Shown: in pieces, positions 2,391 to 43,589 of the stretch
How the letters are laid out: every line of letters starts with the position of its first letter
How positions within the stretch are numbered: the first letter of the stretch is position 1
Assembly (NCBI GenBank): GCA_031283085.1
Contig: JAITCM010000033.1
Span: 1-43,589 of the forward strand
Length of the DNA: 43,589 nt
Source of the DNA: Chitinispirillales bacterium
Lineage (GTDB): Bacteria > Fibrobacterota > Chitinivibrionia > Chitinivibrionales > Chitinispirillaceae
Direction of reading: 5' to 3'
Notes under the pieces: model-generated
What the model was told of the DNA's origin: nothing
Databases searched by the model: none
Seen by the model: only the letters and a program-made list of their open reading frames with translations
Program-made: the position numbers and the translations under genes

Positions 2391-3329
2391 ATGCCGACAA
2401 TAGCGATGCTGTTCCCCGGACAGGGTTCACACTCCGTAGGGATGGGCAAGGATTTTTACGATAGCGGCGATAACCCGTCCTGCCGTAAGTTTTTTGAGGA
2501 CGCCGACAAAATCTTAGGCCGTGATTTGAGCCGAATCGTCTTTGACGGCCCCATTGAGGAGTTGACGGAAACGCGGAACACGCAGCCCGCCCTGTTTGTC
2601 GTGGAGGCGGCCATTGCCGACTTATTGTTAAAATCCGGCGTTACCCCCGTGTGCGCCGCCGGCCACAGTTTGGGCGAGTACGGCGCTCTTTACGCCGCCG
2701 GCGCGCTCTCTTTTGAGGACGGTGTGCGGTTAGTCGCGGCGCGCGGCGAGGCTATGGCGGAGGCGGGGCGGGCTAATCCGGGCGCTATGGCGGCGGTCTT
2801 GGGGATGGTTCGGGACAGGATAATTGATGTTATAGGGCAAGTGAAGAGCGGAGTCGTCGTCGCCGCGAATGAGAACGCCCCGGAGCAGACGGTGATTTCC
2901 GGCGAGGCAGCCGCGGTGAGCGAGGCTTGTGAGTTGCTGAAGGCGGCGGGGGCAAAGCGGGCGATGCCGCTGCCCGTGAGCGGCGCTTTCCACTCCCCGC
3001 TGATGCTGCCCGCGGCGGATAAGCTCTCCGAGGCGCTAAAATCCGTGAAATTCTCCGCCCCGCGCTGCCCCGTAATAGCGAACGTCACCGCGAAGCCCGA
3101 AACCGACCCCGCGTTATTGAAGGATTTACTGATAAAACAATTAGTCTCCCCGGTACGATGGGTGGAATCAATGAATACGCTTGCGGCACTGTCCCCCCCC
3201 GCCTGCGCGGAAGTCGGTCCGGGGGCGGTGCTCAGGGGTTTGGCAAAAAAATGCGTCCCGGAGATGAATATTTTGGCTTGCGACAGCGTAAATAACTTAT
3301 ATTTTATTGTGGAACAGCTAAAAGGTTAG
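2391..3329 (+). CDS. fabD: Malonyl-CoA:ACP transacylase
   Basis: Transfers malonyl from CoA to ACP, supplying the extender unit for FabH and FabF. The 312-residue protein opens with LFPGQGSHSVGMGK. The nucleophile elbow is GHSLGEYGAL with S93, and the catalytic histidine is H201 in GAFHSPLM. Length and motif spacing match the family. The upstream sequence TTGGAGATACGTAACA gives a GGAG Shine-Dalgarno about 10 bases before the ATG. It lies in the fabH-fabD-fabG order of the canonical cluster. Confidence 0.96.
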   Translation: MPTIAMLFPGQGSHSVGMGKDFYDSGDNPSCRKFFEDADKILGRDLSRIVFDGPIEELTETRNTQPALFVVEAAIADLLLKSGVTPVCAAGHSLGEYGALYAAGALSFEDGVRLVAARGEAMAEAGRANPGAMAAVLGMVRDRIIDVIGQVKSGVVVAANENAPEQTVISGEAAAVSEACELLKAAGAKRAMPLPVSGAFHSPLMLPAADKLSEALKSVKFSAPRCPVIANVTAKPETDPALLKDLLIKQLVSPVRWVESMNTLAALSPPACAEVGPGAVLRGLAKKCVPEMNILACDSVNNLYFIVEQLKG

Positions 3330-3330
3330 C

Positions 3331-3360
3331 GCCGTGTTTATCGCGGCGAAGCCAATCCGG
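3331..3360. repeat. Family A repeat fragment
   Basis: The fabD-fabG spacer contains GCCGTGTTTATCGCGGCGAA followed by GCCAATCCGG. The second part matches the CGAAGCCAATCC core at 61-72 and 9338-9349, and GCCGTGTTTATCG recurs at 4498-4510. It appears to be a decayed piece of the dispersed repeat sitting inside an operon spacer. Confidence 0.4.
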
Positions 3361-3393
3361 ATATTGTCAACACGAAGAAATAAGGGGTAAAAA

Positions 3394-4475: not shown

Positions 4476-4535
4476 ACTTGTTTATCTCGGCAAGGCCGCC
4501 GTGTTTATCGAGACGGAGTCGGATCGGTTTATACG
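4476..4535. repeat. Decayed family A repeat in the acpP-fabF spacer
   Basis: The 152-base spacer between acpP and fabF contains AACTTGTTTATCTCGGC, close to AACTTGTTTACTTCGGC at 45-61, then a second GTGTTTATCG block and a GGATCGG/CGGATTTT tail. It reads as one or two eroded copies of the dispersed family A repeat. The spacer ends in GGCGC plus an eight-T run (4545-4557), but without a clear stem, so I do not call a terminator. Confidence 0.4.
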
Positions 4536-9213: not shown

Positions 9214-9367
9214 GGCATCTCTAAAAAAGGTACATCGTTCTGGATTGCTTCGCTTCGCTCGCAATGACCGTCATTGCCTTGCGGCGAGATAAACAAGTTG
9301 CGAGGCGCAAAGCGCCGAAGCAACGTGTGTATCTCGGCGAAGCCAATCCAGATTTTTAGAGGTTCCC
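9214..9367. repeat. Nested palindromic element (family A, fullest copy)
   Basis: The gap 9142-9401 is filled mainly by this structure. Outer arms GGGCATCTCTAAAAA (9214-9228) and TTTTTAGAGGTTCCC (9353-9367) are inverted repeats matching at 13 of 15 positions. Inside lie CTGGATTGCTTCG (from 9240) and CGAAGCCAATCCAG (ending 9351), again inverted apart from one extra C, plus GCAATGAC/GTCATTGC and GGCGC/GCGCC stems. It has no coding capacity and looks like a REP- or MITE-like mobile palindrome. Parts recur at 1-76, 3331-3360 and about 4476-4535. Confidence 0.7.
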
Positions 9368-24280: not shown

Positions 24281-24475
24281 TTGACGTATGTGTTTTCGCG
24301 CCGCAGTGCGGCGCATATTTGTTTGGTGTTGCGACGCGAAGCGGCGCATGTTTATGGGGGGCGTTGCGGGGGGGCTTTATCCCCCCGCAGGGTGGGTAGC
24401 TCCATAAAATATAGCGGCGTAGCCGCTATATTTTATGGAGCGAGGGAGGGCGCAGCCCTCCCCTTAAAATAGATG
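24281..24475. repeat. Family B hairpin-string element, copy 1
   Basis: This element fills most of the 241-base gap between tusA and thiS. In order it carries GCGCCGC-AGT-GCGGCGC (24298-24314), GCGGGGGG/CCCCCCGC (24366-24373 and 24381-24388), a perfect 20-bp stem with a 3-base loop (24399-24418 and 24422-24441), and GGGAGGGC/GCCCTCCC (24444-24451 and 24455-24462). Thirty bases at 24289-24318 are identical to 34847-34876. Flanks GGGTAGC and GGAGCG recur there too, while the central palindrome differs. A small reading frame across it is not a gene. It could attenuate transcription between tusA and thiS. Confidence 0.75.
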
Positions 24476-34846: not shown

Positions 34847-35010
34847 TGTGTTTTCGCGCCGCAGTGCGGCGCATATGGCTCGGTGGCTTTGCCACCGGTG
34901 GGGGCGTTGCGGGGGAGTTTTATCCCCCCGCATGGGGGGTAGCGGAAAACAAAAAGGAGACGTATTTTTGGCTCCTTTTTGTTTGGAGCGTGGGGGGCTT
35001 GCCCCCCCTT
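34847..35010. repeat. Family B hairpin-string element, copy 2
   Basis: The 275-base gap between hemA and the siroheme gene is filled with consecutive hairpins: GCGCCGC/GCGGCGC (within the 30 bases identical to 24289-24318), CGGTGGC/GCCACCG, GCGGGGG/CCCCCGC (34909-34915 and 34925-34931), a 13-bp stem AAACAAAAAGGAG/CTCCTTTTTGTTT (34947-34959 and 34972-34984), and GGGGGGC/GCCCCCC. Order and flanks (GGTAGC before, GGAGCG after the central stem) match copy 1, while the central arms are unrelated in sequence. No gene is supported inside; an apparent frame upstream of the sirC start is element sequence. Confidence 0.75.
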
Positions 35011-41316: not shown

Positions 41317-41513
41317 CACTGCCGTCCCATAGAAAAATAAGGCTCTTCAGGGTTTATGGCGGGAATGGGCATTCATGGTAAAGGCGTTTTTGGATTTTGA
41401 CGTTAGCGTATCGCTTTTAGGGCGCACCCCACCGGTGGCGAAGCCACCGAGCCTAGGGGTGCGGCGCTCGGTAGAACTAAAATAAAAATGTGTTAACCCG
41501 GTCAAATATATTA
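41317..41513 (-). repeat. Partial inverted copy of the terminal-repeat element
   Basis: The 345-base gap 41210-41554 is mainly this element. Its left end CACTGCCGTCCCATA (41317-41331) followed by GAAAAATAAGG matches, in reverse complement, the right end of the element closing at 43589. Its other side, 41479-41513, matches the reverse complement of 43233-43267 at 33 of 35 positions. Between them lie nested hairpins CGCACCCC/GGGGTGCG (41423-41430 and 41456-41463) around CGGTGGC/GCCACCG (41433-41439 and 41443-41449). No transposase is present. The second terminal repeat seems to be missing. Confidence 0.65.
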
Positions 41514-41554
41514 CATTTCATTGGAAGCCGGGTTTAAGGCAAAGGAGGGTTGTT

Positions 41555-42460
41555 ATGGCGGTAGCGGCGTTAATGGCGCTCGCCGCGATGTTTCTGGCAT
41601 CGTGCGAATCGGGGCACAAATCAACGGACGGCAAAAGCGCCTGCGTCGGCGCCGATACGCTTTTTTATCACCGGCTGCGGGGCGACCTGTACAAAATTGC
41701 CGGGAAAGAGCGCTGCCCGAATCAACTCAATCGATTAACGGAATTAACGGACTCCGCCAGGTTGACATCACCCGATACGGCTCATTCGGTAACGGTAAGC
41801 GACTCCGACGGGACGCCATACGCGCTGGGTATCGGGCTGCCGTATCATTTTGACCGCAACCGCTCATACCCGTTAATAATATACCTGCACGGGGGAATCG
41901 GCACCGACATATCCACCAAAGGCGAGCGGGCGTGGGAGATGCTCGGCGGGCTTCGGGACAGTATCGACGTTATCATAGCCAGCCCGTCCGGGAACCGCTT
42001 CGCCCAATGGTGGACGCCGCGCGGGATGGGGCGGATAATTCACGCGGTACGTTACGTCAATACCGTTTATAACATTGTTCCCGGCAAAATATTCTTAGCC
42101 GGCGTAAGCGACGGCGCGACCGGCTGCTACGCTTTCGCTTCGGCCGCGGGCGGCGACGGACCGTTCGCCGGGTTCTTCGCCGTATCCGGCTTCGGCGGGA
42201 TGCTGCCGCGCCTGGGAGTACGGCTGTCGATTGACAATTTGAGAAAACGGCCGATATATAATGTTAACGGCGGGAAGGACCGCCTGTATCCCATAGAGGC
42301 GGTAAACGGTTTTATCGAGTATTTGCGCGGGGAAGGGGTTCCCGTTACGAACAGGACTTATCCCGACGAGGAGCACGGGTTCGACTACAGGGAGCGCGAG
42401 TATTCGGAGCTTGCGGAGAGAATCAGAGGCTGGTCTTCGCGGGACTCAACATCCCGATAA
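41555..42460 (+). CDS. Esterase-like alpha/beta-hydrolase lipoprotein
   Basis: A 301-residue lipoprotein hydrolase of the polyhydroxybutyrate-depolymerase/feruloyl-esterase-like kind. The lipobox LASC ends at C17, although the leader MAVAALMALAAMF lacks the usual basic residues. The oxyanion segment is YLHGGIG (about 110-116), the nucleophile S185 in GVSDGATG, and the likely acid and base are D242 (NGGKDRLYP) and H274 (DEEHGFDY). It is predicted to act on ester bonds outside the inner membrane, for example on plant polymers; the substrate is unproved. A good AAAGGAGGG Shine-Dalgarno precedes the ATG. It lies between two opposed repeat copies and may have moved with them. Confidence 0.8.
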   Translation: MAVAALMALAAMFLASCESGHKSTDGKSACVGADTLFYHRLRGDLYKIAGKERCPNQLNRLTELTDSARLTSPDTAHSVTVSDSDGTPYALGIGLPYHFDRNRSYPLIIYLHGGIGTDISTKGERAWEMLGGLRDSIDVIIASPSGNRFAQWWTPRGMGRIIHAVRYVNTVYNIVPGKIFLAGVSDGATGCYAFASAAGGDGPFAGFFAVSGFGGMLPRLGVRLSIDNLRKRPIYNVNGGKDRLYPIEAVNGFIEYLRGEGVPVTNRTYPDEEHGFDYREREYSELAERIRGWSSRDSTSR

Positions 42461-42482: not shown

Positions 42483-43235
42483 GAGTTTGCAGATGAGATA
42501 GATAGATGGGATGGGAGGCATAACAGGTTATTTGATATTGGACGTACGTCTGAATCACTTAGAAGTATTGGTATGAAAGATAGTGCAATTAAGTGGCATG
42601 GTGCTAAAATTACAAGTATTTTGAATAAACATAGTGGAATGACAAAGGATATTATAAAACAAGTACCAAATGCTTTAGAAGACCCGATTATTGTGTTAAA
42701 ATCACAGACGTCTGATTCCCGAATTGTGATGCTTGGGGAAGTTTATGATAAATATGGGGCTCCAGTACTTGTTGCATTAGAGTTGATGCCCACTAATAGA
42801 AAAGGGTTGCTGATAGATACAAGTATAATTGTAAGTGCATATGGTAAGGATTCTGATATGGCTAAGTTTATTGAACGTAGCGAGGTTTTATATATTAGCA
42901 CAGATAAAAAAAGGACCACTCAATGGTTTCAGGGATTACGGCTCCAATTGCTTTCATATGAAACTATTTGTGGTCCTATTGGCAAAATAACATATTCGGG
43001 CAACCAAATCAATATTTCTGGTGTCCCATTTTCACAGCTATCGCAAAACCTTGCGGCCAATTCGGCCCCCAGGCCTTATTTTTCTAGTGTTGGTAGCTCT
43101 ACTGACCACCACAATACTAATATAATACAATCTTCAGAGAAAAGCAAGAAAAAAAATCACTACCGTCCCATATGTAATCCCAAGCGTTCCCAAACCGCCG
43201 TAGATAGCGTCAAAAAGCCATATATTTCAATATAA
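42483..43235 (+). pseudogene. Fragment of a phage MuF-C-like toxin domain
   Basis: The frame is open from 42483, after a TAG, with its first ATG at 42573 (220 residues to 43235). Sequence before that ATG already fits the domain (LFDIGRTSESLRSIG), so the ATG is internal and the true gene body is missing. The rest (ILNKHSGMTKDIIKQVPNAL, EDPIIVLKSQTSDSRIVML, DTSIIVSAYG, SEVLYIS, QGLRLQL) resembles C-terminal domains of MuF phage proteins, thought to be toxins. At 43158 the frame enters the terminal repeat of the following element, so the last 26 residues are not original. It is very AT-rich compared with neighbours, consistent with phage or plasmid origin. I am fairly sure of the fragment status, less of the family. 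Confidence 0.6.
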
Positions 43236-43589
43236 TATGTTTGACCGAGTTAACACATTTTTATTTTCAACGCTATGTCTTTGCGTAAGTGTTAAACGCC
43301 GCGCAGCGGCGTTACGCCGGCGGTTTTACCGCCGAGCCATTAACCGGGGGTTTTAACCCCCGGTAGCGTAACGCTCGCTCCATCTCAAAGTCCCGCCAGG
43401 GACGACACAATTGTTTTTATCTAACCTCAAATAAAGTGTCGTCCCTGGCGGGACTTTTTAGCTTCACGGCATCCCCTAACCGGCGGTTAAAACCGCCGGT
43501 TAATAGAGTAACGTCCCTAGCGGGACTTTCCGCAATTCCAATTATTAACAATTCCACGAGCGCCTTTATTTTCATATGGGACGGTAGTG
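43158..43589. mobile_element. 432-bp non-autonomous element with 17-bp terminal inverted repeats
   Basis: CACTACCGTCCCATATG at 43158-43174 is the exact reverse complement of 43573-43589, the last bases of the window. The interior has no credible gene but a string of hairpins: AACGCCGC/GCGGCGTT (43295-43302 and 43306-43313), GGCGGT/ACCGCC (43319-43324 and 43328-43333), ACCGGGGGTT/AACCCCCGGT (43343-43352 and 43355-43364), a long 22-bp pair (43387-43408 and 43436-43457) and TAACCGGCGGTT/AACCGCCGGTTA (43477-43488 and 43491-43502). Its left end interrupts the toxin-domain frame. This suits a MITE-like element mobilised in trans; the end could also be that of a larger insertion sequence continuing past the window. 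Confidence 0.65.
43387..43457. repeat. Perfect 22-bp inverted repeat with a 27-base loop
   Basis: The left arm (43387-43408) begins AAAGTCCCGCCAGGGACG and the right arm (43436-43457) is its exact reverse complement ending GGCGGGACTTT. A third, imperfect piece, CGTCCCTAGCGGGACTTT, follows at about 43512-43529. The loop is AT-rich. It is the strongest structure inside the terminal-repeat element. Confidence 0.75.

Follow-up and report, generated by a model that had tools for sequence, protein, structure and literature searches.

Results

Two composite elements in the window

The window analysed here is a stretch of 43,589 nucleotides from a Chitinispirillales bacterium (contig JAITCM010000033.1), and it carries two copies of a palindrome-rich element at 24281-24475 and 34847-35010, the second beside a siroheme-type gene. 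An earlier note on this DNA had described the two as sharing a start and flanks around entirely different hairpins. Both copies indeed exist and share an identical 30-base start (24289-24318 = 34847-34876) as well as GGGTAGC or GGTAGC before and GGAGCG after the hairpin, and their centres differ, with a perfect 20-bp stem in copy 1 and a 13-bp stem in copy 2. The shared flank sequence was thus correctly seen but is not a constant frame around the hairpin, as it forms the paired foot of the same helix. Against shuffled sequences copy 1 folds far beyond chance (z of -7.5 as RNA and -9.2 as DNA) and copy 2 clearly so (RNA z of -3.4). The components of the copies are as follows, TM1 and TM2 being the putative triplex motifs discussed below.

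24298..24314, + strand: copy 1, 5' accessory mini-hairpin GCGCCGC-AGT-GCGGCGC (from sequence and repeat search)
24331..24347, + strand: copy 1, second accessory mini-hairpin GCGACGC-GAA-GCGGCGC, imperfect (from sequence; recurs upstream of other copies)
24356..24389, + strand: copy 1, TM1, GGGGGG-CGTTGC-GGGGGGG-CTTTAT-CCCCCCGCA, a potential R-R-Y intrastrand triplex (from the phylum-wide core pattern)
24390..24396, + strand: copy 1, G-run 1, GGGTGGG, proposed third strand of TM2 (mirrors the purine arm GGGAGGG, its T facing an A-T pair)
24397..24443, + strand: copy 1, central variable hairpin TAGC...GCGA, perfect 20-bp stem with left foot TCC (from folds and covariation), the proposed connecting loop of TM2
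24444..24462, + strand: copy 1, terminal hairpin GGGAGGGC-GCA-GCCCTCCC, proposed duplex of TM2
34856..34872, + strand: copy 2, 5' accessory mini-hairpin GCGCCGC-AGT-GCGGCGC
34877..34899, + strand: copy 2, small palindrome GGCTCGGTGGC-TTT-GCCACCGGT, inserted in place of a portion of the 5' string (also in other copies of the genome)
34900..34932, + strand: copy 2, putative TM1, GGGGG-CGTTGC-GGGGG-AGTTTTAT-CCCCCCGCA
34933..34939, + strand: copy 2, G-run 1, TGGGGGG, proposed third strand of TM2
34940..34991, + strand: copy 2, central variable hairpin, 13-bp stem, foot GGA/GGA with purine mismatches (from fold and covariation)
34992..35007, + strand: copy 2, terminal hairpin GGGGGG-CTTG-CCCCCC, proposed duplex of TM2

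Two further strings, at 41395-41470 and 43295-43502, had been taken for related copies. Both lack the GGGGCGTTGCGGGG core and are palindromes different from the family element, the first having in common with copy 2 only the small inserted palindrome GGCTCGGTGGC..GCCACCGGT. This palindrome has the form GGCTCGG-stem-CCGGT with a changing stem and is found at 34877-34899, at 41427-41453 in reverse orientation and at three other loci (L013, L023 and L029), where it sits inside other palindromes as a nested mini-element.

The window also holds a second dispersed repeat, unrelated to the element, of the AACTTGTTTATCTCGGCGAAGCCAATCC type (42-79, 3328-3365, 4495-4532 and 9319-9356), which is intergenic in related species as well. 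Near its end two 39-nt inverted arms (41479-41517 and 43229-43267, 92% complementary) enclose a 1.7-kb segment that holds an ORF of esterase type (41555-42460) and a second ORF (42573-43235), and may form a transposon-like unit. The sequences CACTGCCGTCCCATA / GGGACGGTAGTG lie near these arms in both orientations (41317-41333, 43159-43175 and 43573-43589) and recur at other loci of the genus.

A dispersed intergenic repeat family

Both copies are members of a large family of DNA repeats, dispersed between genes, that had not been listed before. The source genome alone has 34 sites matching the element pattern, 31 of them complete, with 25 different central hairpins, so that there is neither one fixed centre nor a want of further copies. 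Across five species of the source genus we counted 105 complete copies with 55 different central hairpins, and the centres are far more alike within than between genomes (Jaccard 0.46 against 0.12; maximum difference in permutations 0.045). In this genus the copies are intergenic, none lying inside a called gene as far as the flanks can be resolved. TTTGAC tracts are about four times denser in the element-bearing intergenic regions of G000 than in those lacking it (5.9 against 1.5 per kb) and lie on the strand of the element.

The in-depth search covered Fibrobacterota genomes and collections of plasmids, phages, viral contigs and E. coli genomes. Of 168 Fibrobacterota genomes, 93 contain the core GGGGCGTTRCGGGG..CCCCGYA, against no control matches, and it is followed there by the downstream parts in the same order as in the window; in nearly all of the matches listed a G-C/A-T change in the TM1 stem is compensated. 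A pattern spanning the core gave a single match in a named genome, contig LIUJ01000172 of 'Fibrobacteria bacterium GUT77'. Several family-f8 genomes (L267, L270, L279 and L282) have a copy that apparently overlaps, on the opposite strand, the 3' end of one and the same gene, as if it provided the C-terminal tail of that gene.

Beyond the phylum, a 73-base query taken from a Sphingopyxis plasmid found 27 plasmid records covering most of its length, chiefly from Alphaproteobacteria plus Treponema, and the core is also present on an acidobacterial plasmid; these plasmid matches came with the shorter core query, the full-length window copy having none among plasmids. On several plasmids (L320, L321 and L322) the element is placed immediately upstream of genes of the ArdC-like, toprim or zincin-metallopeptidase kind and faces away from them, and a tie to single-stranded DNA entry in conjugation is conceivable. 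The core occurs in 17 IMG/VR stretches. A phage origin was discarded, as the whole copy had no match in the phage collection and core queries matched only partially. The element is absent from 5,426 E. coli genomes. No known structured RNA family was matched in Rfam 15, in which the window element had no covariance-model match at gathering threshold or at E up to 2 and the element of 12 relatives none at E up to 1. We found no description of the core sequence or of Fibrobacter palindromes in the open-access literature.

The central helix covaries and keeps purine mismatches

The TAGC and GCGA of the flanks pair with each other and close the central helix, whose foot was compared over 54 distinct sequences from 22 genomes. 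Positions 3, 4, 8, 9, 11 and 12 are standard pairs in 89-96% of feet, with several pair types at each. Beside this strong covariation, positions 2, 5 and 7 have two purines opposed in a mismatch in 78-83% of feet (A·G in 44/54, G·A in 45/54 and A·G in 41/54); A·G, G·A and G·G are conserved mismatches. Two-sided pair changes number 91, whereas 500 shuffles gave a mean of 27 and a maximum of 37, and slid controls gave 13-27; as the shuffles ignore relatedness, this count is support and not a probability. With 55 hairpins among 105 copies, the proposal that structure in the central stem is kept without sequence is strongly borne out.

The mismatches are not symmetrical between the strands: read on the G-rich strand, G·T (21) outnumbers A·C (3) and A·G (60) outnumbers C·T (0). 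The tolerated mismatches therefore single out the G-rich strand as the folding one.

Mirror-image G-runs suggest a string of triplexes

While the earlier reading of the central stem stands, it overlooked the mirror-symmetric G-runs that point to triplexes. The helix is preceded by G-run 1 and followed by the terminal hairpin, whose purine arm is the mirror image of G-run 1, for example GAGGGGG...GGGGGAG, GAAGGGG...GGGGAAG, GAGATGGG...GGGAAGAG and GGGTGGG...GGGAGGG. Purine-motif triplexes have a third strand antiparallel to the purine arm and use the base triples G·GC, A·AT or T·AT. Of 37 A-T pairs in the arms, 33 have an A or T opposite them when the runs are aligned in the mirror register and none when they are aligned in the direct register (shuffles: mean 56%, maximum 76%). 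An independent set of plasmid and IMG/VR sequences that had not been used before gave 26 of 26, a value reached by 0 of 1000 shuffles (maximum 77%). Mirror symmetry is cheap in G-runs, and the test rests on these 37 + 26 A positions, in sequences that are partly related.

Of 94 elements, 84 have the layout of TM2, with a third strand, a long loop, a purine arm and a pyrimidine arm, as against none of 94 shuffled ones and 4 of 118 other intergenic regions; the connecting loop of TM2 is a hairpin of 23-103 nt. TM1 has the same arrangement with short loops (about 6 nt in copy 1). Among 177 regions upstream of the core, 30 hold a third arrangement, TM0 (pyrimidine-purine-purine), as does 1 of 177 shuffled ones; the arms of TM0 vary in sequence and the putative third strand follows, as in GGGGGAGATA/AAAGTGGGGG and GGGGGAGAACA/AAAAGAGGGGG. 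Judged from sequence, the family pattern implies one DNA strand that could fold into a chain of triple helices, and our reading is that the element strings together several potential intrastrand triplexes and is kin in kind to the PIT/TM elements of E. coli.

DNA or RNA

The mirror code favours folding as single-stranded DNA, because purine-motif triplexes reportedly exclude RNA strands, an observation attributed to Semerad and Maher in 1994. The main competing explanation is an element acting at the RNA level, where the string would be transcribed with the adjoining gene and its hairpins would protect, process or terminate the mRNA. In the source genus the element is oriented with its co-directional neighbours in a ratio of 53:10 (p = 3e-8), which favours an RNA role or, equally, a place on the lagging-strand template if genes follow replication. 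The tolerance of G·T over A·C on the sense strand, the kept A·G/G·A mismatches, which are typical of RNA helices, and the T-runs that end some central stems also agree with an RNA. Against it, orientation is mixed in three groups outside the source genus (3:4, 2:4 and 8:4), Rfam gave no match, and the mirror third strand is not predicted by an RNA that such triplexes would exclude. Most stems have no terminator T-run, and the central hairpin was rejected as an intrinsic terminator in general. We regard an RNA-level element as unlikely, though likelier than the other rivals.

Spread and the search for a transposase

Near-identical copies at different places, together with a copy number that differs strongly between genomes, imply that the element spreads. 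A link to a REP-type transposase had been raised, and a non-autonomous element of REP/BIME type, moved by a Y1 (RAYT) transposase reading a GTAG-hairpin, would be palindromic, intergenic and mosaic as this one is, with GGTAGC at the 5' foot in the source genus; a Y1 transposase is present in G000, G001 and G002. The link found no support over the phylum, however, where core and Y1 are independent (44 genomes with both, 49 with the core only, 36 with Y1 only and 39 with neither; odds ratio 0.97, p = 1, 168 genomes). No Y1 transposase was found in G007, a genome 68% complete with 55 sites, and the one Y1 gene of the source genome has no flanking copies. The GTAG is moreover not conserved, the 5' foot being TAGC, CAGC, TGGC, TGAT or TGCG, and the foot is paired. 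Movement by such a transposase is in our judgement improbable.

Orthologous places inform on turnover more than on insertion. The site upstream of thiS is occupied in both species compared, and the siroheme-type gene beside copy 2 has no element upstream in G007, where synteny is lost; at shared sites the central stem differs, and insertion polymorphism was not shown. MITEs are defined by terminal inverted repeats and a target-site duplication; terminal inverted repeats of about 20 nt (AGGGCAAACGCATCTTAATTT / AAATTAAGATGCGTTTGCCCT) surround some copies (L234, L257 and L264) in G055, a Fibrobacterota genome of another family than the source, and are not found in the source genus.

The G-runs might alternatively form a G-quadruplex, or serve as alternative Watson-Crick partners of the C-runs. 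There are four G-runs on one strand, and in the RNA fold of copy 2 G-run 1 does pair with the distal C-run. Yet neither structure predicts the mirror match of A and T in G-run 1 to the A-T pairs of the duplex, and Watson-Crick pairing predicts the opposite register to the one observed; we hold either structure to be quite improbable as an explanation of the runs.

Stem turnover, probably by template switching

In G000 and G007 the element occupies one shared position at the thiS site, where its flanks agree and its stems differ, and this orthologous pair from two species supports the idea of a swappable centre. A subset of copies in the source genome points to how stems may be exchanged, as the GGA/GTA left foot of all other species is there replaced by the exact complement of the right foot: left TCC goes with right GG in 8 of 8 cases and TAC with GT in 2 of 2, in the source genome only. 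The assembly also contains the thrS-infC region in two alleles, one with a GTA block where the other has TAC. These alleles lie on contigs C89 and C92 of G000 and are about 88-95% alike at the protein level, and the assembly thus probably mixes two strains. Such arm-complement blocks look like the mark of template switching between the arms of a palindrome, a process that creates and maintains hairpins (PMC8794818). Template switching explains the turnover of stems; it explains neither the kept purine mismatches nor the mirror repeats. For this reason we find it least likely of all that these are neutral palindromes made perfect by template-switch mutation alone, with no triplex and no selection: the three-base arm-copying changes and the known capacity of switching fit, but switching would erase purine mismatches that are kept across families, and mirror repeats, which are not palindromes, and core conservation across the phylum and beyond would go unexplained.

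Discussion

We think it probable, on balance, that each of these dispersed intergenic repeats is a chain of potential purine-motif intrastrand triplexes borne by its G-rich strand. From 5' to 3' the string comprises an optional TM0 (pyrimidine arm, purine arm, purine third strand), TM1 (GGGG-CGTTGC-GGGG-TGT-CCCC) and TM2 (G-run 1, central hairpin, G-run 2, short loop, C-run), with the variable central hairpin of TM2 as the loop that would join the third strand to the duplex. For the reason given above, folding is expected when the G-rich strand is single-stranded, most likely as lagging-strand template or as incoming plasmid DNA. The fold would hinder polymerases, and template switching within the stalled palindromes would copy one arm onto the other, so that stems could change wholesale and yet remain perfect. 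Copies may spread by single-stranded DNA or recombination routes supplied by the host, the weakest step of this scheme, and any role in the cell would be mild at most. Two further points count against the triplex reading: no stable triplex of the E. coli TM motif was seen in vivo (Holder et al., PMC4666352), and an RNA role would give the same orientation bias of 53:10 in the source genus.

A wider hypothesis, which we put forward more tentatively, sees a multi-phylum DNA element that in single-stranded form would be a succession of intrastrand triplexes, a hairpin occupying the loop, and that single-stranded DNA machinery would recognise or propagate; its third strand would be evolutionary covariation evidence that a bacterial intrastrand DNA triplex both forms and matters in vivo. 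As to the formation of such triplexes in cells, footprinting of the E. coli motif was negative (PMC4666352). A proposed third strand that tracks its duplex across phyla offers a testable evolutionary argument for formation on single-stranded DNA, and the family is at the same time a natural record of whole-stem replacement and, probably, of arm-to-arm template switching.

Several known systems resemble the element in part. In quasipalindrome evolution by template switching (PMC8794818, PMC7202029) multi-base changes likewise make one arm the exact complement of the other; this is however a mutation process and not an element family, and covers stem turnover only. REP and BIME sequences (PMC3733652, PMC2817692) are also short intergenic palindromes in mosaic arrangement with many copies per genome. 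Unlike them, our element has no conserved unpaired GTAG/CGTC tag and no associated RAYT transposase, and it has mirror repeats of the triplex type. Closest are the PIT/TM_ECO elements of E. coli (Hoyne and Maher; Holder et al. 2015, PMC4666352), intergenic triplex repeats without promoter or terminator activity that are associated with local genome variability. In both, a dispersed repeat combines one purine and one pyrimidine arm with a third strand of purines in mirror image, following the G·GC, A·AT, T·AT code in the mirror/inverted register, and in both copy number differs strongly between relatives. TM_ECO is a single class II motif of 34-37 nt with loops of 3-6 nt, whereas the element strings several motifs together; it also differs in core sequence and host range, and its sequence departs from the TM_ECO pattern CCCTCNCCC-N3-6-GGGNGAGGG-N3-GGGNGAGGG. 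Published searches limit the loop to 1-6 nt (ITxF) or 0-10 nt (Hoyne) (PMC4666352), so that the 23-103-nt hairpin of TM2 exceeds them and existing searches exclude it. What is new here, as predicted from these sequences, is that the connecting loop in one of the triplexes is itself a long hairpin, free to change.
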